Below, piece after piece: positions 196 through 14,590 of a stretch of 39,721 nt of DNA. The notes beneath the pieces were generated by a model that worked only from the letters and a program-made list of their open reading frames with translations, was not told where the DNA came from and did no database searches. The stretch covers positions 1-39,721 of IMG/VR virus record IMGVR_UViG_3300020439_000022. The stretch is one strand, 5' to 3'. This DNA comes from a virus. Each line of letters starts with the position of its first letter. Position 1 is the stretch's first letter. The translations under genes were made by a program, and so were the position numbers.

Positions 196-417
196 ATGAA
201 ATGGTGGGAAAGATACTGGCCTAAAAAAGAAGAAGAACAAGAACAGGAAGTTCGTGTTGTAGATATGATGGAGGATGATGTAGATCCTGAAGAACTTACA
301 ATAGCGAATGCGTATAAAACACGGTGGATTTGGTATCACACCATCTTAGCGATTGAGATCTTTACCACTAATATACTTCTAATAGCTATTCTTATCGTAC
401 TGGCGGTGAAATTATGA
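196..417 (+). CDS. Small membrane protein, C-terminal transmembrane helix
   Basis: A 73-residue protein with a charged, Glu-rich N-terminal half (WPKKEEEQEQE) and one long hydrophobic segment at about residues 45-71, ending almost at the C terminus. This is the layout of a tail-anchored inner-membrane protein with a cytoplasmic head. Its stop overlaps the start of the next gene by four bases (ATGA), which suggests translational coupling. Function is unknown. Pairing with the adjacent lipoprotein-like gene could point to a lysis or envelope role, but nothing in the sequence proves that. Confidence 0.6.
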   Translation: MKWWERYWPKKEEEQEQEVRVVDMMEDDVDPEELTIANAYKTRWIWYHTILAIEIFTTNILLIAILIVLAVKL

Positions 418-752
418 GCAAAAAGTTTAACACAGTTAAGGCCTTAAAGCGAATGAAACTAATCCCTACAACAAAACAGCATATTCAACTTATGTTCATG
501 GGTAAAATAGCAATGGTTGCAACGGCCGTTATTATATTATTCATGCTATTGTCAGGATGTTCTACTATACACGTCGTGAAAGAAGGCAAAGTATTAGAAG
601 AGATAGAGCGTGTTTATGATGAAGAAGACGTTATTCGTGATATAGAACTTAAAATAAAGTCGTTACCAACACAGAGTATTGAACTTTCGGAAGGTGTTTG
701 TTGGAGTGAACGTATGGGATTACATCTTTGTCCCGACGGACGAACTTACTAA
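414..752 (+). CDS. Lipoprotein-like envelope protein
   Basis: A 112-residue protein. A basic N-terminal stretch is followed by a hydrophobic segment at residues 31-46 and a lipobox-like LSGC with the cysteine at residue 49; the remaining 63 residues are acidic and contain two more cysteines near the end. If processed as a lipoprotein, the acidic part would sit in the periplasm. An internal start at Met27 or Met29 would give a more ordinary signal-peptide length, but I see no good ribosome site there. An o-spanin-like lysis role is possible but unsupported. Its stop interlocks with the stop of the opposite-strand gene (shared CTAA at 749-752). Confidence 0.55.
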   Translation: MSKKFNTVKALKRMKLIPTTKQHIQLMFMGKIAMVATAVIILFMLLSGCSTIHVVKEGKVLEEIERVYDEEDVIRDIELKIKSLPTQSIELSEGVCWSERMGLHLCPDGRTY

Positions 753-1924
753 GCCCAATCCCCAGAAGTATCAAAGTGAGATCTATCAGGCCATTTACCA
801 CAAGTCTGTACACACTTAACACAATGGCCTACAGGATCTTTTAGATTTCCTTCTATTCCGTCAGGTATTGTTTTATTGAAGAACTTAGATTGTAGTATAT
901 CTTCTACAGAATTTGTTTCACTAGGTATAAGTAAACTTTCATCACCTACCATATCTCGTAATTGATTGTCTTTAGCGAACCAACTACCACCTAAAAAACA
1001 ACAAGGTAAAAACATACCATCACAATCTATAAAAAGTTCCTTTTGTTTAATGGCATGACAGTCTACGTCTAAATTATTATGTTCTCGTAACCAATAATAA
1101 CTATACATATCATCATAGCCTTCTGTTCGTGTTCTTAATTGAGTTCTGTATTTAGCACTCTTTGCTATAACGTTTTTATTGTAAAAATCATTCTCAGTAG
1201 TTTCTTTTGCATAGAAATCGTAATCATATTGCTTTGTTTTTGTGTCTGGATATATCTCATACATATAACTACCGTCTTTTCTACTATGCACAGCCATTGT
1301 ATCTAAATTAGGATGACTAGGCCCGTTAGCAAATCCAAATGGTTGTTTTAACTTTAATTGTATATCGTGTTCTTTACAGAACTCTTTTACTTTAGGTATA
1401 TCGTCGACATTGTGTTCAAATACAAGAAAATCCCATTGCGCCAAACCAGGACCCTCTTTATACGCCAATATATTACGCATAACCTTATCCCATTTAACAT
1501 TTTTACGATATATGTGATTTGTATCTTCCCAACCGTCTACAGAAAAGGTCATTGATCCTCTTCCAAATCCACTTTCGTTGCCTTGTAATATATCTGACAT
1601 ACGTCTAAATTGTTTAGCACTTCCCATACCACCATTGGTTAATACATCTACACCCGCATTTTCATTAATACTTTTAATGTATTCTAATATATCAACTATT
1701 TCTGTACAGGACATTGGGTCACCACGCGTGCCACAGAATAACCAATAGTTTATTGATTTGATAAAGTCCTCACCTAATAACTTAAAATAGTTTAGGTCTA
1801 ATTGTACGTTCTTTATATTGGAATCTACGATGCCTCCGTAATGGCTACGGAAGCATCCTGGACATTCGGCGTTACATTTATCAGTAAGTTCTACGTGAAC
1901 TCGTTCTATACCATGCTTATACAT
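749..1924 (-). CDS. Radical SAM protein with SPASM-like C-terminal cysteines
   Basis: 391 residues. The N terminus has the radical SAM cluster motif CxxxCxxC at Cys17, Cys21 and Cys24 (DKCNAECPGC), which binds the [4Fe-4S] cluster that cleaves S-adenosylmethionine. The region around FCGTRGDP probably replaces the usual GGE SAM-binding motif. The C-terminal third holds CHAI...DCDGMFLPCC and then a CVKC...C group, the pattern of SPASM or twitch domains that carry auxiliary Fe-S clusters. Such enzymes often modify peptides or sugars; the substrate here is unknown. It differs clearly from the three tandem radical SAM genes at 10222-14590. A late-promoter box lies at 1934-1941. Confidence 0.8.
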   Translation of the reverse strand: MYKHGIERVHVELTDKCNAECPGCFRSHYGGIVDSNIKNVQLDLNYFKLLGEDFIKSINYWLFCGTRGDPMSCTEIVDILEYIKSINENAGVDVLTNGGMGSAKQFRRMSDILQGNESGFGRGSMTFSVDGWEDTNHIYRKNVKWDKVMRNILAYKEGPGLAQWDFLVFEHNVDDIPKVKEFCKEHDIQLKLKQPFGFANGPSHPNLDTMAVHSRKDGSYMYEIYPDTKTKQYDYDFYAKETTENDFYNKNVIAKSAKYRTQLRTRTEGYDDMYSYYWLREHNNLDVDCHAIKQKELFIDCDGMFLPCCFLGGSWFAKDNQLRDMVGDESLLIPSETNSVEDILQSKFFNKTIPDGIEGNLKDPVGHCVKCVQTCGKWPDRSHFDTSGDWA

Positions 1925-1933
1925 TATAAAGAG

Positions 1934-1941
1934 TATTTATT
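1934..1941 (-). promoter_or_regulatory. T4-type late promoter box (AATAAATA)
   Basis: Read on the minus strand the bases are AATAAATA, one mismatch from the T4 late consensus TATAAATA. By T4 spacing the transcript would begin at about 1928, leaving only a four-base leader before the radical SAM start at 1924. The box overlaps the stop codon of the upstream coiled-coil gene. Confidence 0.5.
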
Positions 1942-2372
1942 TACTCTACATCATTAAGTGGATTTTCGAGTACCGTTTGTATCTTTTCTTCTAACTCTTC
2001 TTTGTTCTCTCTAATGTCTGCATCCATTTCTCTAAAACGCTTTTGCATTTCCTTCTCCATCTCGTAAACATCATTACGGATTTCTCTTTGGGTTTCAGCA
2101 GTAGTTCTATCTACTCTACGTGCTAAGTCTACAGCTTCTTCTATTTCTCCCTGTAAGTTATCCTTAATAACATCAGTAAGTTCAGTTAGTCTTACTATTT
2201 CGTTTTCGATGGTAGTTGGATTAAGTGCATTTAGTTTTTGTTCTGCATCCAATAGACGACTATAGAGTTCAAAACCTCCCCATAGGCCTCCAATTAGAGT
2301 ACCTATCAACGGAAGTATTAGTAGGAGTTTAGAACCTCCGACTTTGACACCTGCGTATTCTATTTCTGCCAT
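1941..2372 (-). CDS. Membrane-anchored coiled-coil protein
   Basis: 143 residues: a short N terminus, one hydrophobic segment at about residues 15-37 (LLLILPLIGTLIGGLWGGF), then a long highly charged helix with heptad character to the C terminus (EMEKEMQKRFREMDADIREN). This is a bitopic membrane protein with an extended coiled-coil domain. An i-spanin has the same layout, so a lysis role is possible, but the size and context do not settle it. Its start abuts the stop of the upstream acidic protein (1-base overlap), so both belong to one operon. Confidence 0.65.
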   Translation of the reverse strand: MAEIEYAGVKVGGSKLLLILPLIGTLIGGLWGGFELYSRLLDAEQKLNALNPTTIENEIVRLTELTDVIKDNLQGEIEEAVDLARRVDRTTAETQREIRNDVYEMEKEMQKRFREMDADIRENKEELEEKIQTVLENPLNDVE

Positions 2373-4909
2373 TATTGATTCTCCTTGTATTGTGATAATA
2401 TCATTGTTTTAAGTTTTGCTTCTGTACTTCCTGCCATACGATAAAACGATCCCTTATTATCGTTTATCTTAGCATTTGTGTACAGCATTTTAACCTCATA
2501 CCAATTTGCATTATCATTGATTTGTTCCATGCCTGTATAAGCGCTAAATCCGGCTTTGTAACCTAATACAGTAACTGCTACTGTTTGGTCATCAAATCCT
2601 CCTGACTCATTATTAGATTCTAATTGGGCTGCTAACTGTTCTTGTGCTGCCTCTTCACCTAAACGTTCTGCTAAGTTTTCTACCGCTTTTGTTGTACGTT
2701 TTTCTGACATACTTGGCGGTTCTACATCAAAACTACTAAAGTCAGGCATTTCATTACTTAAAAATTGTCCAATGCTTTGTCCTGCTCCTAAAGCATCGGA
2801 AAAACTGTTTTCAAATTCTACACTTGAACCTCCAAAACTATCATTTGATTCAAATGTAAATTCTTGTTGTGCTACTGTTTGTTCTTGTTGTTGCTCAGCA
2901 ACTTCAAAAACGTTTGTTTGTGGACCTACTTCTACTGTTGCTACCTGTATGTCCACGGTTCCTGTTTGTTGTTCCTGTTGTTCTAAAGCGAAGGTGTCAC
3001 CTCCTTGTGACAGTTGACCTCCTTGTACACCTCCATTAGATTGTGACTCGGAGCCACTTTGTACTTGCTGACTTACAACACTTGCAGCCGCTCCCAATTC
3101 CTTTTTAAGTTTTGCTATAACCATTGCTGATCTACTAGGACGAGAACTTTCCTTTTTCTCTTCTTTAACTTCTGCTGGTGCTGTTTCCTCAACAACTTCA
3201 TCAACTTCCTCTATTACTTCTTCCTCTTCTATAATTAGTTCGGGTTCTTCTTGTAATAGTTCTTGTAATTCTTCTTCGTTAATTAGTTCTTCGAATGCCT
3301 CGTCATCTAACAAGTCCTCGACTTCTATACTAATTTCCTCTTCAAACACTTCCTCAATTTCTTCAGCGATATCTGTAAAGTCTTCTTCTACCAAATCTTC
3401 AAGTATATCTACATATTCCTCTTCTATAAACTCTTCAGCAAATTCTTCTTCTGGTTGCCACTCATCTTCTCTAAATATCTCTACACCTACTTGCTCTTCT
3501 AATATGTAAACTTCTGTACTATCTAATTGTGCTAGTAATTCGTCTGGTTCAGACATTTCTACACTATCCCACTCTATCATGCCTTCTTCTGTAAACTCTA
3601 CATCAGCACCATACCATTCATCTACTTGTTCTTGTCCAAACTCTTCTACATCTATTGCATACCATTCTTCATCAGTAAATGTGTCCCAACCTTCTCCAAA
3701 TTGTTCTGTCATTTCCTGTTCATATAAACCATCATCTATAATCATTACTTCTTCGTAACCGTATTGTTCTGCCTCACTTCCATAACCTAGAGCCTGAGCT
3801 TCGAAGTCATCATCATAACCATACATTTCCATTTCTTCGTCTGAAAACATACCGTCATCATAATACTCTTCGTCGCCACCTTGTAGTGATTCCTGATATG
3901 CTAGTTCTTCCCAATAACCATCACATTGACTATCATACAACGGATCCATGTCACATTGTAAATCAAAATATGCTGCAGTATATCCTGGACAGTCCTCACT
4001 ATACAGCGAATCTAAATTACATTGTTGCGTAAGATAAGCTGTTGCGTATCCAGGACATTGTTCATCATATAAGGCATCTAGTCCACATTGTTGATTAAAA
4101 TATGCTTGTGCGTAACCTGAACATTGATCGCTGTATAAAGGATCTAAATTACATTGTTGTTCTAATGTAAGACCTTCACTATACAACGAACCACCGTTTT
4201 CTATATCAGGTCCGCCATAACCTGCTAGGAAAGCGTCGAATGTATTGTAACCATTCTCGCCGTCATTGTAGAACAGATAAGTTTTATAATCGTCAGCAGC
4301 ACCTTGTTCCCCGATTACTACATCATGATTAATAATGTCTAGTTCTCTATATCTAAAATCAAATGTATCGTTGTTCCACAATATAACCTCGAAACTATTA
4401 CTAGAGTTTCTATTGTATTCTTTCATGTAATACCAACCAAAGACTACATAGTCATCAAACTGTTTGAATAACATTTTAGAATTATTGCCACGAATAAGAT
4501 CTGTCCATAAAGGATAAAGTGTATAGTTTCTATATGGTAATGATTGAGGTGTATAGTCTTGACAGTTAGAAGCGTTTCGTCCATCACTTCTGCCTACAAA
4601 ACCTAAACAACCATTGGTAGACATTCTTGCTTGATCCCAACTATATCCCCAACGATTCCAAGTGTTTCCTAGGTTTACAATACTAGACCAAGCGTCATCT
4701 GCTGCATTCAGGTTTGTTGTGCCTGACATATTATATAAGTCTATAAGAGGTTGTCCACTTTCGTAGATATATTCATCTTCGTTATAACAGTTTTTATTAT
4801 CGGCACAGGTTTCGTTGAAACTATCGTCTGCAAATGCGTGGCAGGCAAAGAACGTTAATAAAACGGCAATGCCTAGATGTGTTCCTGTTATTCTCTTGAA
4901 GACGCCCAT
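2372..4909 (-). CDS. Large exported protein: NIDO-like domain, Cys repeats, acidic and Gln-rich regions
   Basis: 845 residues. Residues 1-27 form a signal peptide with a likely cleavage after AFA. Residues about 50-235 resemble nidogen-like (NIDO) extracellular domains, with phrases such as FEVILWNNDTFDFRYRE. Four tandem 22-residue repeats follow (251-338), each with two cysteines and a CxGY-type core. Residues about 340-590 are extremely acidic, about 600-700 are Gln/Ser-rich, and the last 75 form a small folded-looking domain. A Sec-exported, envelope or extracellular adhesive protein is the best guess. Exported proteins of this size are unusual in a T4-like phage. The start overlaps the upstream Thr/Asn-repeat gene by 22 bases. 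Confidence 0.75.
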   Translation of the reverse strand: MGVFKRITGTHLGIAVLLTFFACHAFADDSFNETCADNKNCYNEDEYIYESGQPLIDLYNMSGTTNLNAADDAWSSIVNLGNTWNRWGYSWDQARMSTNGCLGFVGRSDGRNASNCQDYTPQSLPYRNYTLYPLWTDLIRGNNSKMLFKQFDDYVVFGWYYMKEYNRNSSNSFEVILWNNDTFDFRYRELDIINHDVVIGEQGAADDYKTYLFYNDGENGYNTFDAFLAGYGGPDIENGGSLYSEGLTLEQQCNLDPLYSDQCSGYAQAYFNQQCGLDALYDEQCPGYATAYLTQQCNLDSLYSEDCPGYTAAYFDLQCDMDPLYDSQCDGYWEELAYQESLQGGDEEYYDDGMFSDEEMEMYGYDDDFEAQALGYGSEAEQYGYEEVMIIDDGLYEQEMTEQFGEGWDTFTDEEWYAIDVEEFGQEQVDEWYGADVEFTEEGMIEWDSVEMSEPDELLAQLDSTEVYILEEQVGVEIFREDEWQPEEEFAEEFIEEEYVDILEDLVEEDFTDIAEEIEEVFEEEISIEVEDLLDDEAFEELINEEELQELLQEEPELIIEEEEVIEEVDEVVEETAPAEVKEEKKESSRPSRSAMVIAKLKKELGAAASVVSQQVQSGSESQSNGGVQGGQLSQGGDTFALEQQEQQTGTVDIQVATVEVGPQTNVFEVAEQQQEQTVAQQEFTFESNDSFGGSSVEFENSFSDALGAGQSIGQFLSNEMPDFSSFDVEPPSMSEKRTTKAVENLAERLGEEAAQEQLAAQLESNNESGGFDDQTVAVTVLGYKAGFSAYTGMEQINDNANWYEVKMLYTNAKINDNKGSFYRMAGSTEAKLKTMILSQYKENQ
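3896..4159 (-). repeat. Four tandem 66-bp units encoding 22-residue Cys repeats
   Basis: Within the acidic exported protein, four consecutive 22-residue units share the form QQCxLDxLYxxxCxGYxxAY. Each has two cysteines about ten residues apart. The DNA copies have diverged at many silent positions while the cysteines, LY and GY are kept, so the repeat is maintained at protein level. Confidence 0.85.
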
Positions 4910-6081
4910 TCTGCCCTACAAGTCCTTCCTGATTTATAAATTCCCTTATGTTTACCGTCTAAGTGTTTTGTATTCTTACAGGCCTTAACAAAAGCGTCTC
5001 TTTCATCTTTTTCTATTTCTTCAAGAATGTTATCCGCTTCTTCTTGTCGTCTCGCCTGTCCATCTAAACGTTCTCTCCATTGTTTGTAATCAGGTCTTTC
5101 CTGTGGGTTTTGTTTCCAAGCATCAGCTGCCTCAGCACCTATTTTACCCATATACGGACAAGGTGTACCAGCCATTTCCATTGCTGCAAATACTCTTTCA
5201 TCTTGACACATTAACGATACAGCGGCAACTTTCATACCCATATCATATACAGTTTTAGAAAGTTTAATACGTTCACAGTTTTCATCTCTTACACTTTTAC
5301 CACCTGCAACACCAAATAATTGTGTTTGAACGGCACCACTAACACCTGTTGTACATAAGTCTTGAGAGAAACTTGCTCCAATACTAGGTGCTATAGCACT
5401 AGGTGGAGGACTCTTAATTTCCTGTTTAATAGTCTGATTAGTTTCGTTCTTGTTTATGTTTTCGTTCCTATTGTTATTAGTGTTATTTGTTGTGACTTTA
5501 GAATCACTTGTGCTTTCGTTCTTATTAATATTTGTATTATTTGAAGTCGTATTATTGTTATTTGTGTTCGTGTTATTAGATGTACTGTTTACAGTTTGAT
5601 CCACAGTTGAATTATTTGTATTCGTATTGTTAGATGTACTGTTCACAGTCGTGTTATTTGTATTATTATTCGTATTATTGTTGGTATTAGTACTCGTACC
5701 CGTATAAGTGGTATTGTTTGTATTATTGTTGGTATTCGTGCTAGTACCTGTATATGTTGTATTATTAGTATTGGTATTCGTGTTGTTATTGGTGTTCGTA
5801 TTTGTTGATGTGCTTGTATTTGTATTTGTGTTGTTATTGGTGTTCGTATTTGTGTTAGTACCAGTATAAGTGGTAGTATTCGTGTTCGTATTGGTGTTGG
5901 TATTGGTGTTCGTGTTGGTATTCGTATTTGTGTTCGTGTTCGTATTCGTCGACGTTGTAGTCGTATCTACGGACTCACAATATTGAGTGCCCTGCGTACA
6001 ATCCCCGGTTTGGTCAGCGTATGCTGTCCCGCTTAATCCTATGAGCCCTATTCCTAATAGTGCTACTATAATTCTTTTCAT
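4888..6081 (-). CDS. Exported Thr/Asn-repeat protein with Cys-containing C-terminal domain
   Basis: 397 residues. A clear signal peptide (MKRIIVALLGIGLIG...TAYA, cleavage near residue 22) is followed by a short segment with two cysteines, then a low-complexity Thr-Asn tract from about residue 40 to 225 with interspersed TYTGT units. After a Pro-rich hinge (KSPPP) comes a domain of about 170 residues with six cysteines, including MCQDE and AGTPCP, and a charged helical tail. The mature protein would be extracytoplasmic; the Thr/Asn tract is a likely flexible stalk or glycosylation target. Function is unknown. It sits in the same operon as the other exported proteins. Confidence 0.75.
   Translation of the reverse strand: MKRIIVALLGIGLIGLSGTAYADQTGDCTQGTQYCESVDTTTTSTNTNTNTNTNTNTNTNTNTNTNTNTTTYTGTNTNTNTNNNTNTNTSTSTNTNTNNNTNTNTNNTTYTGTSTNTNNNTNNTTYTGTSTNTNNNTNNNTNNTTVNSTSNNTNTNNSTVDQTVNSTSNNTNTNNNNTTSNNTNINKNESTSDSKVTTNNTNNNRNENINKNETNQTIKQEIKSPPPSAIAPSIGASFSQDLCTTGVSGAVQTQLFGVAGGKSVRDENCERIKLSKTVYDMGMKVAAVSLMCQDERVFAAMEMAGTPCPYMGKIGAEAADAWKQNPQERPDYKQWRERLDGQARRQEEADNILEEIEKDERDAFVKACKNTKHLDGKHKGIYKSGRTCRAEWASSRE
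5407..5964 (-). repeat. Thr-Asn low-complexity tract (hexanucleotide-like ACN-AAY repeat)
   Basis: About 186 codons alternate mostly between Thr and Asn. Codon choice is mixed (ACG, ACA, ACC, ACT with AAT and AAC), so the DNA is only an imperfect hexamer repeat. The purest alternation is at the N-terminal side; further on, the Asn share rises and TYTGT and VNST units appear. Confidence 0.85.
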
Positions 6082-6166
6082 ATTAGTTCCTTAACTTAAA
6101 TAGGCAACGCGCCTAAACTCAAATCAAAAACTAATTATGAAGTCATTATTTTAAATTTGTATTAAA

Positions 6167-6277
6167 TTATAAACAGTAGTCTGGTGTAGGATCTATTACC
6201 CAACAATGATTGTCTTCGGAAATATCTGTTGCGTATATACACAACGACAAACTACCTATCATCAAAATCCATTTCAT
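6167..6277 (-). CDS. Tiny exported peptide (36 residues)
   Basis: The ATG at 6277 overlaps the TGA of the upstream 95-residue gene (ATGA), the usual coupling signal in this phage. The product starts MKWILMIGSLSLCIYA, a short signal-peptide-like segment, and the remaining 20 residues are acidic with two cysteines that could form a disulfide (DNHCW...DYC). It ends at TAA 6167-6169. Its small size makes it easy to miss. No family is recognised; reality rests on the start overlap and the peptide's signal-like composition. Confidence 0.5.
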   Translation of the reverse strand: MKWILMIGSLSLCIYATDISEDNHCWVIDPTPDYCL

Positions 6278-6561
6278 TTTTTACTCTCTAAATCCTCTAT
6301 ACGTTTTATCATATCAGGATATGCTTCGAATTCATGTAATTCTTTACACGGATGCGAATCCTTTTCTAACTGAAGAATTCTTTTATAAATTCCAGGATAC
6401 TTTTCCCAAAATTTTTCCTCTTGTTTTATGATGTCAATTCCTAACTTATCTTCACACCACTTATCAACCTTTAACAACCAAGGTTCTAAGAAACTGAATG
6501 CTCCGGTTGTAGCCAGTTTGACAACAATATTCTTTAATATAATTAATATAAAATTAAACAT
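6274..6561 (-). CDS. Small membrane-associated protein, first gene of the minus-strand late operon
   Basis: 95 residues with a hydrophobic N terminus (MFNFILIILKNIVVKLA) followed by an amphipathic charged region rich in Glu and Lys. A TATAAATA box at 6608-6615 and a GAGGAC ribosome site just ahead of the ATG support this start. It leads the operon that continues through the 36-residue peptide, the Thr/Asn-repeat protein, the large acidic protein and the coiled-coil protein. No family is recognised. Confidence 0.55.
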   Translation of the reverse strand: MFNFILIILKNIVVKLATTGAFSFLEPWLLKVDKWCEDKLGIDIIKQEEKFWEKYPGIYKRILQLEKDSHPCKELHEFEAYPDMIKRIEDLESKK

Positions 6562-6607
6562 TTAAGTCCTCAGTTAAACGTCAAATTAATTACATTATAT
6601 ACCTGAG

Positions 6608-6615
6608 TATTTATA
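6608..6615 (-). promoter_or_regulatory. T4-type late promoter box (TATAAATA)
   Basis: An exact TATAAATA on the minus strand lies 46 bases upstream of the 95-residue gene at 6561. By T4 spacing the transcript would start near 6602, giving a leader of about 41 bases with a GAGGAC ribosome site. It probably drives the whole exported-protein operon down to 1941. Confidence 0.75.
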
Positions 6616-6708
6616 AGACCTAGATTACCAGACGTTGTAAATTATTGAGTTTGCTCTTATAAATCACTATGTGATGGATATTAAGGCAAACTTTATATAG
6701 ACAGCCAA

Positions 6709-6716
6709 TATAAATA
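6709..6716 (+). promoter_or_regulatory. T4-type late promoter box (TATAAATA) heading the modification cassette
   Basis: An exact TATAAATA lies 21 bases upstream of the ATG at 6738. The predicted start is near 6722, giving a 16-base leader that contains AAGGAAGG as ribosome site. It is divergent to the box at 6608-6615 within the same 176-base intergenic region. It implies that the 12.6 kb enzyme cassette downstream is expressed with the virion genes. Confidence 0.8.
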
Positions 6717-6737
6717 GTAACAAAGGAAGGACAGAAC

Positions 6738-7040
6738 ATGGTGAGAGTAGCGTTCACCACCGTTTTAATGTTAATATTTTTCTGGTCATGGCCTATACGG
6801 TTGTTTACAAATAAGAACAACTGCTACTTTTGGACATTAGAGAAACTTATAACAAAAGGTGGCTCAGCTAAGTGGTATAAGAGCAGGCGATGGTTTGGAC
6901 ATCACGTAATATGGATTGACAAAGCAGGCCAAGCGTGGGAGTACACGATCCCAAGAATGGCCCGTAATACACCTTGGTATAGAATGCTTTTCTATCATGG
7001 TTCCGTTCGTAAATTTAGAAACTTTAAGAAAGACCAATGA
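6738..7040 (+). CDS. Small basic membrane-anchored protein
   Basis: 100 residues: a hydrophobic N-terminal segment (residues 3-22, VAFTTVLMLIFFWSWPI) followed by a basic, aromatic-rich domain with several Trp and Tyr (WYKSRRWFGHHVIWIDKAGQ). It is probably anchored in the inner membrane. It has a good ribosome site and late promoter, and its stop overlaps the desaturase start by four bases, so it may work with that membrane enzyme. Function is unknown. Confidence 0.65.
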   Translation: MVRVAFTTVLMLIFFWSWPIRLFTNKNNCYFWTLEKLITKGGSAKWYKSRRWFGHHVIWIDKAGQAWEYTIPRMARNTPWYRMLFYHGSVRKFRNFKKDQ

Positions 7041-7783
7041 GAAAGGCTGTTTTCAAACAAAATAAATCCTGGGCTCCCATCACACTTCTGGCGGGCCAAC
7101 TGATTGCTCAGGTTACTGCAATTAGCTCATTGTTTCTATATAGCTGGACACCTGTAACAATAGGTGTAGCATTTGCAGTATATATTTCCATTATGTTGGG
7201 TATCACTATGGGATACCATAGACTTTATTCACATAGGGCTTTCAATTGCCCTAAACCTATAGAATACCTTTTATTATTCTTTGCACACATAATGATGGTT
7301 GGCCCTGCCATTACTTGGGTTGCTAATCACAGAGAACATCACAAATATGTAGACACACCGGAGGATCCACATAGTCCTCACTATCGTGGTTGGCTAATGG
7401 CATACTTTGGACAAGTTTTAATAGATATAAACTTTAAGTATGCAAAAGATTTATTAAAAGATCCCTTACACAGATTACAAGTTAAATATTATTGGCAAGT
7501 CATTATAATCTGGGCAGCGTTATTGTTTGCTTTACTAGGCCCTGAGGCGTTGTTATATGCTTGGTTAGTTCCAGCAGGATTTGCTAAACTATTTGGTTCA
7601 TTAGTATTTACATTTTCTCATAGAGGTAAACAAGCACGTAGCGATACGTGGGTTGGTATTCTCACATTAGGTGAAGGTTTTCACGATAAACATCACGTCA
7701 ATGCGAGAGTAGCAGTTTGGCATCCTTTAGATTTAGGTGGGCAACTTATTAGAATGATAGATAGAAATGCTAAAATACAATAA
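7037..7783 (+). CDS. Fatty acid desaturase (membrane di-iron, acyl-CoA/lipid type)
   Basis: 248 residues with several hydrophobic helices and the three histidine boxes of membrane fatty acid desaturases: HRLYSH (His61, His66), HREHH (His98, His101, His102) and HDKHH (His216, His219, His220). These bind a di-iron centre that uses oxygen to insert a double bond in an acyl chain, usually delta-9. At 248 residues it is shorter than the roughly 300-residue bacterial forms but keeps all boxes. It could adjust membrane fluidity during infection, or modify an acyl chain on another product of this cassette. It would act in the inner membrane. Confidence 0.88.
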   Translation: MRKAVFKQNKSWAPITLLAGQLIAQVTAISSLFLYSWTPVTIGVAFAVYISIMLGITMGYHRLYSHRAFNCPKPIEYLLLFFAHIMMVGPAITWVANHREHHKYVDTPEDPHSPHYRGWLMAYFGQVLIDINFKYAKDLLKDPLHRLQVKYYWQVIIIWAALLFALLGPEALLYAWLVPAGFAKLFGSLVFTFSHRGKQARSDTWVGILTLGEGFHDKHHVNARVAVWHPLDLGGQLIRMIDRNAKIQ

Positions 7784-8438
7784 GAGAAATTATCCTGCAA
7801 TTGCACAAATAGACGTAGACTTAGATTACAACTTAATCGAAGACTTTCTGTGGGAAAACTATGATAGATGGCAAAACAATTTTGAGGCACATAAAGGATT
7901 AGCAGTCGCTAGTAATAACATAGCAGACGAAACATATAAACACGTTCAACACTTTCACCTAACAGAATGTAAGAAAGAAGAAGATTTAGGTGATGCTACT
8001 GAATACACTACAAAAGATAAACTGAGGCGCAATATTCCATTTACAATGGATGAGCATAATTGGGACGAACCCGTAGATTTTTACAAGGGCTCTACGCTAC
8101 AGTCACATTTAAACGGAGCATTCCAAGATAAATTGATACGGGTTCGTTATTCTCGTATGTTTCCCAATGGTTTCGTCCCACCTCATATAGATTACAATAC
8201 AACATACGCAATGCGTTTTATTATTCCTATATCAGGTAATAATGGTGTTGAAAATCATTTCTGGTATAATGGAGAACACAAAGTAGTTGAAATGGAAGAG
8301 AAGAAATGTTATTTTCTTAATATAGGATATAAACACGCAGTATATCACAAGGGACAAAGTATTAGACATTATTTAATGGGCTCTATTGCTGGGCAAAGAG
8401 ATTTTGAATGTATAAGATTAAAACAAGACAACAACTAG
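7767..8438 (+). CDS. Aspartyl/asparaginyl beta-hydroxylase-like 2OG-Fe(II) oxygenase
   Basis: 223 residues. The C-terminal half has the iron facial triad pattern: PHIDYN (His140, Asp142), then YKHAVYH (His190) and SIRHYL (Arg200, likely for 2-oxoglutarate). The spacing and flanking residues fit the Asp/Asn beta-hydroxylase cupin family, which hydroxylates aspartate or asparagine side chains. The N-terminal 100 residues are not recognised. The gene starts inside the end of the desaturase gene (17-base overlap). A related protein lies at 18548-19027, so two such enzymes frame the cassette. The substrate is unknown. Confidence 0.75.
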   Translation: MLKYNKRNYPAIAQIDVDLDYNLIEDFLWENYDRWQNNFEAHKGLAVASNNIADETYKHVQHFHLTECKKEEDLGDATEYTTKDKLRRNIPFTMDEHNWDEPVDFYKGSTLQSHLNGAFQDKLIRVRYSRMFPNGFVPPHIDYNTTYAMRFIIPISGNNGVENHFWYNGEHKVVEMEEKKCYFLNIGYKHAVYHKGQSIRHYLMGSIAGQRDFECIRLKQDNN

Positions 8439-8986
8439 AAGATGAAAATGCTTTAGGTAGCATTGACATTATTATTAACCAAGCATACGCAGAAGGCAAC
8501 GGCGAAACCTTCGACAACAAGTATCACCCATACAATACACCAGGTGAAACATTAGTTCTTTTTTGGCACGGACAACCTGCAGGTATTGCACACTTAGAAC
8601 CTAGTCATTATACAGGCGACGAAGATATAGCAATCAGAGCTTGTCGTTATCACATACTAAAAAAATTTAGAAACAATCAATTAGGATTTGTGTTGTTGCC
8701 TGAACTAATGAAACATTCAAAGAAACTAGGTTATAAAGTTATGTGGTGGAGTCTACACGAAAGTAATGTAGCATTAAACAATGCCTATCAAGGCAAAAGA
8801 AGAACAATACAGTCTAAAAAGTTATGGAACAATACTTATGACGAGGACTTCTGGCAAAAAATTATATTTGACGAACGTTATAAATTTATGGTGGATGAAA
8901 ATGCACCACACTATTTACAGAACGTTTATTGGATAGATTTAACAGACGAAGGATATGATTGGCAACCTAAAAAAGGAATGGTATGA
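8408..8986 (+). CDS. GNAT-like acyltransferase
   Basis: 192 residues. The middle section (GETLVLFWHGQPAGIAHLEP, then FRNNQLGFVLLPELMKHSKKLGYKVMWW and NVALNNAYQGK) follows the beta4-alpha3-beta5 layout of GNAT N-acetyltransferases, including the typical crossover from strand to long helix and a late helix carrying Asn and Tyr. The acetyl-CoA loop is degenerate, so assignment rests on overall pattern. GNATs acetylate amines on proteins, sugars or small molecules; the substrate is unknown. It overlaps the upstream gene by 31 bases and the downstream one by four. Confidence 0.55.
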   Translation: MYKIKTRQQLEDENALGSIDIIINQAYAEGNGETFDNKYHPYNTPGETLVLFWHGQPAGIAHLEPSHYTGDEDIAIRACRYHILKKFRNNQLGFVLLPELMKHSKKLGYKVMWWSLHESNVALNNAYQGKRRTIQSKKLWNNTYDEDFWQKIIFDERYKFMVDENAPHYLQNVYWIDLTDEGYDWQPKKGMV

Positions 8987-9681
8987 GATTTCAAGAAGAT
9001 ACAGTTTTAAAATGGATGAGCTTGGTAAGAAAACACCCAGATGCTCTTGAAGCGTTTTGGCCTAGTCAAGTACAAAGTAAGACTTGGTTGTGTGAAGTTA
9101 TGGGAGAATATTTAGCACAAGAAGGCTCTTCAGGTTGGTATGAACCACAAAGCTGTATTATATTTGGATCTTGGTATGGTGTGTTAGCAGATATGTTGGA
9201 AATACCTAAAACCATATGTGTTGATATAGATCCTAAATATTTAGAGTGGTGTAATACTCCTGATTTGAATTGGAAGGCTAAGGACTTTCATCTTTCTAAT
9301 AAACACTATCCAACAGAACAATGCAGTTTAGATGATTATGTGTATTCTGAAGATTTGCCAAATCCTGACGTTGTAATCAATACAATTTGTGAACACATAA
9401 CACAAGCACAATATGACAAATGGTATGATAATATACCTGAGGGCACCTATGTTATTATACAAGGAAACAATGATTTTTCTCACAAAGATCATATTAGAGC
9501 TAACAATTCATTAGAAGAGTTTCTTAATAATAATCATGCAATACATACAATATATCAAGGACAATTAGAATACGAAGGTCCTTGGGATATGAAAAACGAT
9601 AAACCTACATACTTTACAAGATATATGGCAATCACTAAAAAAGGAAAATATGTAGGTGAAGATATAGGTAATATAAAATGA
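8983..9681 (+). CDS. SAM-dependent methyltransferase-like protein
   Basis: 232 residues with a class I Rossmann methyltransferase layout: a glycine motif FGSWYG at residues 61-66, an acidic end of strand 2 (VDID, Asp81 and Asp83), and a motif-IV-like strand near PDVVINTICEHI. The glycine loop is shorter than usual (GSWYG), as is common in phage members of this class. It probably binds S-adenosylmethionine and methylates a product of the neighbouring oxygenases or radical SAM enzymes. It overlaps both neighbours by four bases (ATGA). Confidence 0.6.
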   Translation: MRFQEDTVLKWMSLVRKHPDALEAFWPSQVQSKTWLCEVMGEYLAQEGSSGWYEPQSCIIFGSWYGVLADMLEIPKTICVDIDPKYLEWCNTPDLNWKAKDFHLSNKHYPTEQCSLDDYVYSEDLPNPDVVINTICEHITQAQYDKWYDNIPEGTYVIIQGNNDFSHKDHIRANNSLEEFLNNNHAIHTIYQGQLEYEGPWDMKNDKPTYFTRYMAITKKGKYVGEDIGNIK

Positions 9682-10232
9682 ACTATAGACAAGTAGACAT
9701 AAAATATCCTGTATGGAAAGTTACGGATTTTTATCTACAAAATACAAACTTTATAGAGAAACATATTTACAATCAAGGCTCCTCACACGACCATCTAAGA
9801 ATAAGCTGTGCATACAATGAAAACTTTTATTTAAATTGGGACGCCAATACAAGAAAGTTACAATACTATATAAGAAACGAGATAAGTAAAATAGAAGAAG
9901 TTAGACAAATGTGGATGAATAATTTGTCTAAATTTGTTTGGCCTTCATTTAAAGAAACAGGAGAAGTGTTACAGGATAAAGAAGGTTTTAAGATGTCACC
10001 ACATATAGACAATAGATTTATATTTGGTGTTTTAATAATTAATTTACAAGATAACCCTGCAGGCTCAGGGACAAACTTTATTGATATGGATTGGGAAGGA
10101 CCTACAGAAAAAGGTACAGGAGTATTCATGTTAAATAATTGGAATACAAGACACAGTATTACAAATCTTGGACCAGGGACTAGAACTATTGGATACCAAA
10201 CGATCCATATTAGAAGTATAAATGACAGATAA
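9678..10232 (+). CDS. 2OG-Fe(II) oxygenase
   Basis: 184 residues. The iron and 2-oxoglutarate ligands are recognisable: SPHIDN (His109, Asp111), NTRHSITN (His159) and GTRTIGY (Arg169), the HxD...H...R signature of 2OG-Fe(II) dioxygenases. These hydroxylate or otherwise oxidise substrates using O2. The gene lies directly ahead of the three radical SAM genes, and its end overlaps the first of them by 11 bases, suggesting a shared pathway. The substrate is unknown. Confidence 0.75.
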   Translation: MNYRQVDIKYPVWKVTDFYLQNTNFIEKHIYNQGSSHDHLRISCAYNENFYLNWDANTRKLQYYIRNEISKIEEVRQMWMNNLSKFVWPSFKETGEVLQDKEGFKMSPHIDNRFIFGVLIINLQDNPAGSGTNFIDMDWEGPTEKGTGVFMLNNWNTRHSITNLGPGTRTIGYQTIHIRSINDR

Positions 10233-11676
10233 AATAAAAGTAGTAGAACTGAACGAAGACATTCGAGGAGACAAAGTTACAGCAGACTTAGAAGGCGCGT
10301 ATCAATCAGTCTATTTTAATGATACAAAAGAAATGGGCGAGGCACTCAATAAAGTTTCTCCCTCATTTTGTTTAGCAAAATGGTTCAATGTTAGTGTACA
10401 TATACCCACAGGCAGAACGCATTCTTGTTATCACCCACCAACACATAAAGTTCCTTTAGATGAATTGGCAGCAGATCCTGGTGCTTTACATAATACAAAA
10501 CACAAAAAGAAACAACGTGCAATGATGTTAAATGGCGAGAGACCTAAAGAGTGTTCTTTTTGTTGGGACATTGAGGACGGAGGCAATATTTCAGATAGGC
10601 CTTATAGAAGTTTTGATGTAAATGAAGAAGGTATTATAGCAGAAGCAATTAAATACGGTTCTGACGGCAATCCTGCACCTAAATATTTAGAAGTTAATTT
10701 TAACCAAGCATGTAATTTTAAATGCACATATTGTAGTCCACATTTATCTACAGAATGGCATAAAGAAATAAGAAAACACGGTCCTTACAAACTAGAAACA
10801 GGTACGCATAACGACAGTGCTTGGATGGAATCAGGAGAGCATATGCCTAATAACAGGCCTGACAATCCATATCTTACAGCTTTCTGGAGATGGTTTCCTA
10901 GTGTATATGATAACTTACAAACATTTCGTATGACAGGTGGCGAACCATTAATGGATAAAAATACATTTAAAATATTTGATTATGTAAAAAAGAATCCTAG
11001 TGAGAAACTTCATTTAAGTATTACAAGTAATTGCAATCCACCTAAACAAGAATTGTGGGATAGATTTATGACAGACTTAAAAGAGATAACAGATAAAGAT
11101 GCAATAGATCACTTTATGTTATTTTGTAGTTTGGATTCATGGGGACCACAAGCAGAGTATATAAGATCAGGTTTACATTTTGATACTTTATATAATAATG
11201 TCAGAAGATTTTTATTAGAAAGTAATAAACACAGTCTAACCTTTATATCTACAATGAATGTTTTATCATTACCAGGTTGGATGGATTATGTAACTAATAT
11301 ATTGGCTCTGAGAAAGGAAATAAATACTGATAGACAACTTATATGGTTTGATACACCAATGTTACATGACCCTAAATGGATGTCATTAAAATTGGCAACA
11401 CCTGAGATGTTACAACCTTTATTAGACAGTATTGTCTTTATGGAGGAAAATAAGGAAACACAATCTAATAGATTTAAAGGTTTCAAAGATTATGAAATAG
11501 ATAAAATTCGTAGATTGTATGATTGGGCAAAGGAACCTTTTGAGCCTAATTTAGAAAAACAAATTAAAAGGAATTTTATACAATATTTTAACGAGAAGGA
11601 TAGAAGGCAAGGAACAAATTTAAGAAAAACTTTTCCAGAGTACAGAACTTTTATTAATGAATGTGAGAAATCATGA
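10222..11676 (+). CDS. Radical SAM protein, first of three tandem paralogues
   Basis: 484 residues. The radical SAM core begins at ACNFKCTYC (Cys164, Cys168, Cys171) and continues with the SAM-binding MTGGEPL. Ahead of the core is a domain shared by all three paralogues with four conserved cysteines (Cys50, Cys69, Cys111, Cys114; signature SCYHPP and CSFCW), a likely auxiliary Fe-S site of the twitch/SPASM type but placed at the N terminus. The C terminus carries a shared DRRQGTNLRKTFPEY motif. Such enzymes start radical chemistry on peptides, sugars or nucleosides. It would be cytoplasmic and oxygen-sensitive. The following gene overlaps it by four bases. Confidence 0.85.
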   Translation: MTDKIKVVELNEDIRGDKVTADLEGAYQSVYFNDTKEMGEALNKVSPSFCLAKWFNVSVHIPTGRTHSCYHPPTHKVPLDELAADPGALHNTKHKKKQRAMMLNGERPKECSFCWDIEDGGNISDRPYRSFDVNEEGIIAEAIKYGSDGNPAPKYLEVNFNQACNFKCTYCSPHLSTEWHKEIRKHGPYKLETGTHNDSAWMESGEHMPNNRPDNPYLTAFWRWFPSVYDNLQTFRMTGGEPLMDKNTFKIFDYVKKNPSEKLHLSITSNCNPPKQELWDRFMTDLKEITDKDAIDHFMLFCSLDSWGPQAEYIRSGLHFDTLYNNVRRFLLESNKHSLTFISTMNVLSLPGWMDYVTNILALRKEINTDRQLIWFDTPMLHDPKWMSLKLATPEMLQPLLDSIVFMEENKETQSNRFKGFKDYEIDKIRRLYDWAKEPFEPNLEKQIKRNFIQYFNEKDRRQGTNLRKTFPEYRTFINECEKS

Positions 11677-13208
11677 GCAACAACACTGATACAGAACTAC
11701 ACAAATATAAATTTAATTTTATAGACAAAATAAGCCCTTCATATTGTGGCGCTAAATGGTATAACGCTACTATATGGTTGGGACATGGACAGACAACTAG
11801 CTGTCACCACCCACCCTCACATGCTATAGATTTAGAAGAGATAAAAACAAATCCTTCTGCTATACACAATACAAAGCATAAAAAAGAAATGCGTAAGATG
11901 ATGCTTAACGGTGTTCGTCCTAATGAATGTGAGTATTGTTGGAAAGTAGAAGATATGGGTAAAGATCATATCTCAGATAGAGTTATGAAAACAATTACCT
12001 TTTCTAAAGAGGATAATTTAAAAGCAGCCGACATGACAGGCGATGAAGACGTTACACTAAAAACATTAGAAATAAGTTTTGATAGAACTTGTAATTTTGC
12101 CTGTTCTTATTGTAATCCTTCTTTTAGTTCTACATGGGTCAAAGACATTAAGAAATATGGCGGTTACAGAAATATTGTAAGTGATGGCAGAGGACACTTT
12201 GTTACAGACGCACCCTGGGCTAAAAATGCAGCAGATAAAGAAGAAGAGAATCCGTACATACAAGCATTTTGGAAATGGTGGGAATCAGACTTACAACATA
12301 GTTTACAGGAAATAAGAATTACAGGCGGTGAACCGTTGATGGCGGCATCTGTTTGGAAATTATTTGATTGGTTTAAAGATAATCCCGATAAAGGTAAAAA
12401 ATTAAAATATGCTATCAATTCAAATTTAGTTCCTAAGAAAAAACTTATGGATAGATTAATTGAATACAGTCATCATGTTCCGCAGTTAGACATTTATACA
12501 AGTAATGAAGCCGTAGGAGCTCATTCAGAGTATATTAGAGATGGTATGATATACAAGCAGTGGAAAGAAAATGTTATACGATTAATTACAGAAGGAAATG
12601 TAAATCAAATTATTTGCATGGGTACAATTAATAGTCTTTGTTTAGCAAGTCTTACAGAGTTTTTAGATGAGCAAATAGATATTAAGAGAAAATACGGAAG
12701 GCAATATCTAACAATATCACTAAACATATTAAGGTTCCCTAGTTTTCAGGCAGCAGCAATTTTGCCTGTAGAAATAAAAACGTATTACAAGGAAAAATTA
12801 GAGAAGTGGTTGGAACCACTAAAAGCAAATCGTTGGGAAGATAAAGATCCTAATGGAATAGCAATACTTAGTGATTGGGAAATAGCACAGGTAGAAAGAT
12901 TAATTGATTACTTAGATATTGTTAAAACACCTCATCAACAGACAGCAGAAACAGATAAGTTATATAATGATTTCAAACAATTTTATACACAATACGATGT
13001 AAGACGAGGTAAAAATTTTAGAGAAACATTCCCACAAAGATTCGTAGATTTCTTTGATAGTATTAAAACAATGGAAGTTATTCCTACAGTTCAACAAATT
13101 GTAGAACAGGATTTACCTGCACCAATTCGTAAAGATGAAATAGAATCAGGTGTTGAACTAGATGAATTTAAAAAAGGTGGCGGTTATATATCTGAGGAAC
13201 TAAAATAA
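11673..13208 (+). CDS. Radical SAM protein, second tandem paralogue
   Basis: 511 residues, same architecture as its neighbours: N-terminal Cys25, Cys44 (TSCHHPP), Cys86 and Cys89 (CEYCW); radical SAM motif TCNFACSYC (Cys140, Cys144, Cys147); SAM-binding ITGGEPL; and C-terminal DVRRGKNFRETFP. A C-terminal extension of about 45 residues (after IKTMEVIP) is absent from the other two and is rich in Glu, Pro and Gly. The shared FSSTW right after the cluster motif is also in the third paralogue, so copies two and three are probably closest. Substrate unknown; possibly each copy acts on a different site of one product. Confidence 0.85.
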   Translation: MSNNTDTELHKYKFNFIDKISPSYCGAKWYNATIWLGHGQTTSCHHPPSHAIDLEEIKTNPSAIHNTKHKKEMRKMMLNGVRPNECEYCWKVEDMGKDHISDRVMKTITFSKEDNLKAADMTGDEDVTLKTLEISFDRTCNFACSYCNPSFSSTWVKDIKKYGGYRNIVSDGRGHFVTDAPWAKNAADKEEENPYIQAFWKWWESDLQHSLQEIRITGGEPLMAASVWKLFDWFKDNPDKGKKLKYAINSNLVPKKKLMDRLIEYSHHVPQLDIYTSNEAVGAHSEYIRDGMIYKQWKENVIRLITEGNVNQIICMGTINSLCLASLTEFLDEQIDIKRKYGRQYLTISLNILRFPSFQAAAILPVEIKTYYKEKLEKWLEPLKANRWEDKDPNGIAILSDWEIAQVERLIDYLDIVKTPHQQTAETDKLYNDFKQFYTQYDVRRGKNFRETFPQRFVDFFDSIKTMEVIPTVQQIVEQDLPAPIRKDEIESGVELDEFKKGGGYISEELK

Positions 13209-14590
13209 TGGCAATGCTACATGGCCTAGATCCGAAGATGTTTAAAAAACATCACTTGGATAAAATTTCATCTTCATTTTGTTTAGCAAAATGGTATGAA
13301 GCAACCATGTGGTTATATATGGGCGAGACAGCATCTTGTCATCACAATCCAACACACGGTATAGAATTAGATCCTAACGATTTACGTTCTTTACATAACA
13401 CCAAAGAAAAAATACACGAACGCCACAGTATGTTAAAAGGTAGGCAACCTGCAGGTTGTAACTATTGTTGGAATGCAGAGAAGTTTGGCCAAACAAGTGA
13501 TAGAATGATGAAGTCTAGATCTTACGATACAAACTTAATAGCAACAGACATTCCAGATAAAGTTACACCATTAAGATTAGAAATAGCATTCAGTAGAACT
13601 TGTAACTTAGCTTGCGCTTATTGTGGACCTCAATTTAGTTCTACATGGGCTAATGATATTAAGAAACATGGTTCATACGATCTAAAAGTTAATAGAAGAT
13701 TTAATGCTGATATAAAAGACAAGCTCATAAAAGATGAAGAAAATCCTTATGTTGATGCTTTTTTAGAATGGTGGCCCGAACTTTCTAAGACATTACAAAT
13801 TATTAGATTCACAGGAGGTGAACCTTTACTACATATTCCTTTCTGGGAGTTTATGGATATGTTAGATAAAGAAAGAACATATAGAGGAAATTTATTTGTA
13901 AACTCTAATTTAATTCATCACAAAGGACAAGTAGAAAAATTTATTGAGCAAACAAAATTTTTGTGGGATAAACAAAGTAAAGACGTAGATAGAAATTCTT
14001 TTATGGGAAACAAAGTTGAAATACATACAAGCTGTGAAAGTAATATGGCACAGGCGGAATTTACAAGAGATGGTTTCGACGGTGAATTATGGATGAAAAA
14101 TGTTCGTACAGTTTTAGATACAAGTGATATTGCATTGACGATAACCACTGCTATTAATAATATGTCTTGTTGGTCATATATAGATTATTTAAAGATGATA
14201 GAAAGTTTAAGAGCAGAATATGGAAATCATAGAGTTAGATTAAATGCTAATAGAGTATTGCATCCAGAATTTCACCAAGTACAACTTATTCCTAAAGAGT
14301 ACAGAGAACAACTAGGAAAAGAAGTAGAAGAATTTATGGAAGTACAAAAACATTTAGGTGACTCTGTTTCTAAAAATCAAATAAAAAACTTTATAAGTTT
14401 TATGTATGATAGTTATTTTGAATCTGCTATTGCTAAACAATATCACATAGCGCAAGATGATGTTGAAAAAGATATGATTAAATTTTTAGATCAATATTTA
14501 GTAAGAAGAAACAAAACAATGGACGGATTGGATCCAAGATATATCGAATGGATAAATACAGTACGGGAAAAATATAATGGCAACGCTTAG
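13208..14590 (+). CDS. Radical SAM protein, third tandem paralogue
   Basis: 460 residues. N-terminal cysteines Cys25, Cys44 (ASCHHNP), Cys84 and Cys87 (CNYCW); radical SAM motif TCNLACAYC (Cys132, Cys136, Cys139) followed by GPQFSSTW; SAM-binding FTGGEPL; and a weaker C-terminal LVRRNKTMDGLDPRY in place of the RRG..FRETFP motif. All cluster ligands are kept, so it is probably active. The start overlaps the stop of the second copy by one base, and the end overlaps the SGNH-like gene by 14 bases. Confidence 0.85.
   Translation: MAMLHGLDPKMFKKHHLDKISSSFCLAKWYEATMWLYMGETASCHHNPTHGIELDPNDLRSLHNTKEKIHERHSMLKGRQPAGCNYCWNAEKFGQTSDRMMKSRSYDTNLIATDIPDKVTPLRLEIAFSRTCNLACAYCGPQFSSTWANDIKKHGSYDLKVNRRFNADIKDKLIKDEENPYVDAFLEWWPELSKTLQIIRFTGGEPLLHIPFWEFMDMLDKERTYRGNLFVNSNLIHHKGQVEKFIEQTKFLWDKQSKDVDRNSFMGNKVEIHTSCESNMAQAEFTRDGFDGELWMKNVRTVLDTSDIALTITTAINNMSCWSYIDYLKMIESLRAEYGNHRVRLNANRVLHPEFHQVQLIPKEYREQLGKEVEEFMEVQKHLGDSVSKNQIKNFISFMYDSYFESAIAKQYHIAQDDVEKDMIKFLDQYLVRRNKTMDGLDPRYIEWINTVREKYNGNA

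Follow-up and report, generated by a model that had tools for sequence, protein, structure and literature searches.

Gene organization and predicted products at the locus

The window analysed here is the whole 39,721-nt stretch of the IMG/VR record IMGVR_UViG_3300020439_000022. Genes for a tail tube cap, a baseplate wedge, a gp5 OB domain and gp32 show that it derives from a T4-like phage, as stated in a preliminary description of this DNA. Three overlapping genes on the minus strand, here called A, B and C, are the subject of this analysis. Gene B (2372..4909, ATG start) encodes the 845-residue protein on which the preliminary description had focused; the reading frame is real, but it runs on the minus strand from 4909 to 2372, and the plus strand at these coordinates contains stops throughout. 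The 5' end of B overlaps the start of the gene for the predicted exported protein A by 22 nt, and its 3' end overlaps the gene for the membrane protein C.

The features previously described for B were largely borne out. Its N-terminus, MGVFKRITGTHLGIAVLLTFFACHAFA/DDSF (the slash marking the predicted cleavage site), combines a charged n-region, a hydrophobic core and an AFA cleavage motif and passes a rule-based test, so that residues 1–27 (4829..4909, minus strand) are predicted to form a classical, Sec-type signal peptide. Residues 28–250 (4160..4828, minus strand) constitute a putative NIDO-like beta-sandwich domain, assigned from Pfam matches of relatives, a family profile and a predicted structure. 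It is followed by four 22-residue two-cysteine repeats, predicted to be helical (residues 253–340; 3890..4153, minus strand), with the unit C-x9-C-x-G-Y and the first cysteines at positions 253, 275, 297 and 319; the period is exact, and only 0.0018 occurrences of this pattern are expected in the shuffled protein. The acidic stretch of about 250 residues is equally well defined: residues 343–592 (3134..3883, minus strand) consist of 40.8% D/E and contain just five K/R (188 D/E versus 37 K/R in the whole protein), and the best 250-residue acidic window was reached in 0 of 2000 shuffles. The C-terminal region (residues 691–845; 2375..2839, minus strand) is common to relatives, some of which carry an unrelated N-terminal domain.

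Gene A (4888..6081, minus strand) encodes a predicted exported, Asn/Thr-rich protein of 397 aa with long Asn/Thr repeat tracts and, as judged from conservation among relatives, a four-Cys domain at residues ~238–340 (5062..5370, minus strand). It is matched by phrog_20531 (E 8e-13), a name without a function that covers A, but not B or C. Gene C (1941..2372, minus strand), the start of which overlaps the stop of B (TAATG), encodes 143 aa with an N-terminal TM segment followed by a coiled coil and ends in ENPLNDVE; its family comprises small one-TM coiled-coil proteins with a C-terminal 'NPL'. The charge bias flanking the TM segment of C favours neither topology.

A nidogen-like domain in the B family

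The preliminary description also mentioned nidogen-like features. This holds for the family, but not for the window protein taken alone: seven of 20 diverse B relatives matched Pfam NIDO (PF06119; best E 3.5e-5), whereas window B gave no match to it at E up to 1, and neither did its first 336 residues when the limit was set to 0.5. A profile built from the 20 relatives found a single match among PDB sequences, namely residues 3–190 of RemA (E 6.8e-12), a surface adhesin of Flavobacterium johnsoniae whose structure was determined together with the type 9 secretion translocon (PMC10994853). Like RemA, B would thus be an exported protein whose N-terminal part is a domain of the extracellular adhesion type; in contrast to RemA it is phage-encoded, has Cys repeats and an acidic linker after the domain and comes without a type 9 secretion system.

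Structure prediction, which had been suggested as a check, gave a confident result. Using an alignment of 62 sequences, the AlphaFold model of residues 28–345 reached a mean pLDDT of 84.4 and consists of a beta-sandwich (core pLDDT >90) and helical repeats (~97); a model from 6 sequences (pLDDT 40) was unusable. A Foldseek search of the PDB with this model returned no match with E ≤1e-3. The best VIA-align score (Z 5.3) was obtained for supersandwich domains of sugar enzymes, a likeness that possibly reflects merely a common beta arrangement. Among predicted viral proteins the model does have matches, for instance a protein from Synechococcus phage S-SRM01 (2.3e-4). The NIDO and RemA matches, the predicted fold and the signal-peptide rule together favour the earlier reading of B as an exported adhesive protein. 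Calcium binding had been considered as well, and B showed no match to known Ca motif families. Direct searches with the full protein against Pfam, PHROGs, NCBIfam and the annotated phage collection yielded nothing of note; structural PHROG families gave no match, and matches to PADLOC defence families were confined to stretches of coiled coil or low complexity (best E 0.0014).

A conserved three-gene cassette in marine phages

B is the middle gene of a conserved three-gene cassette, A-B-C. In B-anchored loci with enough flanking sequence, A lies upstream of B in all 68 cases and C downstream in 55 of 61, and the A and B reading frames overlap in most loci. When one rule-based test was applied to all proteins, signal peptides were predicted for 68 of 75 members of the A family and 45 of 61 of the B family (31 of 372 for other ORFs). 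The homologue search proposed earlier extended the cassette to pelagiphages and to a large number of uncultivated viruses: scans of IMG/VR confirmed at least 596 stretches with the A domain and at least 555 with the NIDO region of B. The remark that such a protein is unusual for a T4-like phage is therefore misleading, as B belongs to a cassette spread over many marine phage lineages. Among 50,697 annotated phage records, only 11 contain gene A. Named carriers are the Pelagibacter phages Mosig, HTVC115P, HTVC033P, HTVC202P, HTVC023P and Baldr, a Votkovvirus fosmid phage and the Roseobacter phages CRP-207 and CRP-810, with SAR11 and Roseobacter as hosts; HTVC023P, HTVC115P, HTVC202P and Mosig are cultured. 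A scan of 84,980 species genomes found only 23 cassette loci, almost all of them from assemblies of metagenome bins or single cells, and these are most likely phage contigs.

The general plan of B comprises a signal peptide, a binding-type domain, 0 to 12 Cys repeats, an acidic linker and a conserved C-terminus. Judged by sequence comparison, the N-terminal domain appears to be exchanged between lineages while the C-terminus is kept: the B proteins of loci L095 and L081 share 59% identity over the last 200 aa (E 4e-73), but the N-terminal domain of L095 is unrelated, and two podovirus-type B proteins show weak matches to CBM_4_9. Among close relatives, the NIDO part is the best conserved (64–83% identity), with the acidic part ranking near the bottom (38–59%); because of this conservation, the ligand of B is probably constant within a lineage.

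Several individual loci deserve mention. Two near-identical B proteins (L005 and L006) contain 11 and 12 Cys repeats, respectively, apparently the outcome of a recent gain or loss of one repeat. HTVC115P carries two different C-type genes in one phage (7842–8204 and 8547–8975; gp52 and gp49). Some database annotations are likely to be erroneous: in CRP-810 (OR671924.1), gp51, labelled 'lysozyme', is a C-type TM coiled-coil protein and gp53, labelled 'OmpA family', is gene A, and in AP013540.1, BAQ94057 is gene B and BAQ94058, annotated as 'DUF2730', is gene C and lacks a Pfam match.

Genomic context and late-promoter-like sites

In podovirus-like members the cassette is surrounded by genes for lysozyme, Rz/Rz1 spanins and holin-like proteins, in gene orders that include holin-like-A-B-C-Rz-Rz1-lysozyme. 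The neighbours match phage lysozyme (PF00959, 9.6e-47), Rz-like spanin (phrog_739, 8e-10) and Rz1-like spanin (phrog_812, 5.5e-11); the holin-like ones match only PHROGs of unknown function. Lysis families account for 99 of 676 genes within 5–7 genes of A and for 12 of 406 further out (p 5e-11, uncorrected for relatedness, and too small because the loci are related to one another). Lysis neighbours occur in 27 of 31 loci with the podovirus-type C, but in only 4 of 21 with the C type of the window, so that the link to lysis rests on other lineages, as the window's own lineage has the cassette away from lysis genes. In AP013540 the cassette lies between tail fibre and terminase genes, with a multi-TM holin-like protein directly before A, and in HTVC023P it is located three genes before a peptidase M15 gene.

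The window contains nine copies of TATAAATA, which we take to be a T4-type late promoter. Their number is not above chance (9 versus 7.5 expected), but eight of the nine lie ≤80 bp upstream of gene starts, including those of tail genes (p ~1e-10). One late-promoter-like copy (6608..6615, minus strand) is situated 46 bp ahead of the ORF that opens the leftward gene group containing A, B and C. This ORF (6274..6561, minus strand), taken from the ORF list, encodes 95 aa with a hydrophobic N-terminus, separates the site from A and matched no family of known function in Pfam or PHROGs. In T4-like relatives, TATAAATA is often found before the cassette, 48–101 bp ahead of A. A published SAR11 phage transcriptome covers HTVC022P and HTVC027P (PMC12753301); neither is among the 11 gene-A records.

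Proposed function and alternatives

We tentatively propose that A-B-C is a late, Sec-exported module that acts on the host envelope in the course of lysis or egress and that B is the arm by which it binds. We infer that, expressed late, A and B would cross the inner membrane via their signal peptides, while C would sit in it by its single N-terminal TM segment, and the coiled coil of C may dock the conserved C-terminus of B. The Cys-stiffened helical repeats and the long acidic linker would space the binding domain of B. No outer-membrane exporter travels with the cassette, and A and B would therefore most probably remain periplasmic until the cell lyses and exert their effect at that point. 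As for ligand and exact step of action, our guess is that the exchangeable N-terminal domain, which is NIDO-like in the window and CBM-like or different in other lineages, binds a glycan or protein of the envelope or surface, and that the module might break or detach the outer envelope or coat debris so that progeny are not lost. Since genuine spanin genes adjoin the cassette in relatives, it would be an addition to spanins and not a replacement for them. A bolder version of this idea, which we regard as rather doubtful, is that the three proteins make up a hitherto undescribed envelope machine that is restricted to phages and has an adhesin arm that can be swapped. Many marine phages infecting SAR11 and neighbouring hosts would use it late in infection, alongside holin, endolysin and spanins and without replacing them, and it would form a fourth functional layer of egress.

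The adhesin-type domain of this predicted exported protein could alternatively serve superinfection exclusion, as the preliminary description had also considered, or receptor masking, the three proteins coating the infected cell surface or a receptor against adsorption or injection by other phages. Replacement of the N-terminal domain of B between lineages would be expected if receptors differ. However, such genes are usually early, whereas the site resembling a late promoter and the presence of lysis genes near the cassette in relatives favour a late role; moreover, the cassette lacks an outer-membrane exporter, and among close relatives no part of B is better conserved than the NIDO-like domain, unlike what a fast-evolving arms race would produce. 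We therefore consider exclusion unlikely. Even less probable is a role in the virion, such as that of an adhesive protein decorating the head or tail, with the apparent signal peptide left unused. A large multidomain protein with a binding domain and late-type gene placement would suit it, but in both A and B, N-termini resembling signal peptides persist from lineage to lineage at a frequency far exceeding that in control ORFs, B matches no structural PHROG, and the cassette is linked to the TM protein C; we judge this reading very improbable.

Two further alternatives arise from known phage systems. Pelagiphages carry CsgF, CsgG, curlin-like, FecR and cyclase genes (PMC7029224, PMC9599517, PMC9004378), and the cassette resembles these curli or type VIII secretion genes in being a predicted exported multi-gene module of the same marine phage groups. 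A and B might accordingly assemble outside the cell into adhesive fibres that keep host cells attached to one another, the 'sibling capture' proposed for pelagiphage curli (PMC7029224), and the Asn/Thr repeat tracts of A would be in keeping with this, as would one cassette found inside a phage curli cluster. In that locus (L036; IMGVR_UViG_3300006191_000057, 415–13285), the order of genes is CsgF, CsgG, a curlin-repeat protein, FecR, a second exported repeat-like protein, two small ORFs, then A, B and C, and after them a CHASE2 adenylate cyclase. However, CsgG was found in 0 of 20 and 1 of 50 cassette records (69 of 70 without it; many are fragments, five are complete named phages), the control HTVC008M is positive for CsgG but lacks gene A, neither window A nor the L036 A protein matches Curlin_rpt, and no clumping was seen for the curli-bearing phage Melnitz (PMC9004378). 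Aggregation thus appears improbable, and we rejected the cassette as a curli module as a rule, this one co-location notwithstanding; the two are distinct modules that may have a purpose or a place in the genome in common. Similarly improbable is that the cassette is a membrane-lysis effector proper, with C acting like a spanin or releasin and A and B as its outer partners, in place of known lysis proteins. C does resemble Rz or Mu gp25 (for Mu lysis and gp25 see PMC9239132) in size, in its single N-terminal TM segment with coiled coil and in its lysis-region setting, and one C relative is annotated as DUF2730. The N-termini of A and B have AxA-type cleavage sites and no lipobox, and C matches no spanin PHROG. 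The family of Mu gp25 is presumably DUF2730, to which C gave no match at E up to 1 and 0.1, and unlike gp25, C is accompanied by two predicted exported proteins. In relatives, true Rz and Rz1 are encoded by separate genes that adjoin the cassette and are thus not replaced there; on these grounds a spanin role of the cassette was rejected.

The contrast between hundreds of marine loci and 11 annotated records points to a large gap in what is known about the biology of abundant viruses of the ocean. If the cassette acts at lysis or egress, as we tentatively propose, it would add a step to the opening of Gram-negative hosts; if it masks receptors, it would explain competition between phages. The cultured carriers make its function testable now.

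Additional observations in the window

Between 26314 and 30891 the window encodes gp32, a 2OG-Fe(II) oxygenase and a lysozyme, followed by a leftward tail gene. The curli cluster of HTVC008M is found at the matching place, between a 2OG-Fe oxygenase and a leftward tape measure gene; this shared position suggests that lysozyme and curli genes may occupy one variable slot. At 196–752 a small protein with a C-terminal TM segment overlaps a lipoprotein-like ORF (LLSGC), and the two could form an envelope pair, though not in the classical spanin arrangement. Finally, three tandem proteins with common AKW and SCHHP motifs are encoded at 10222–14590, beside further host-like genes, and are probably radical-SAM-like paralogues.
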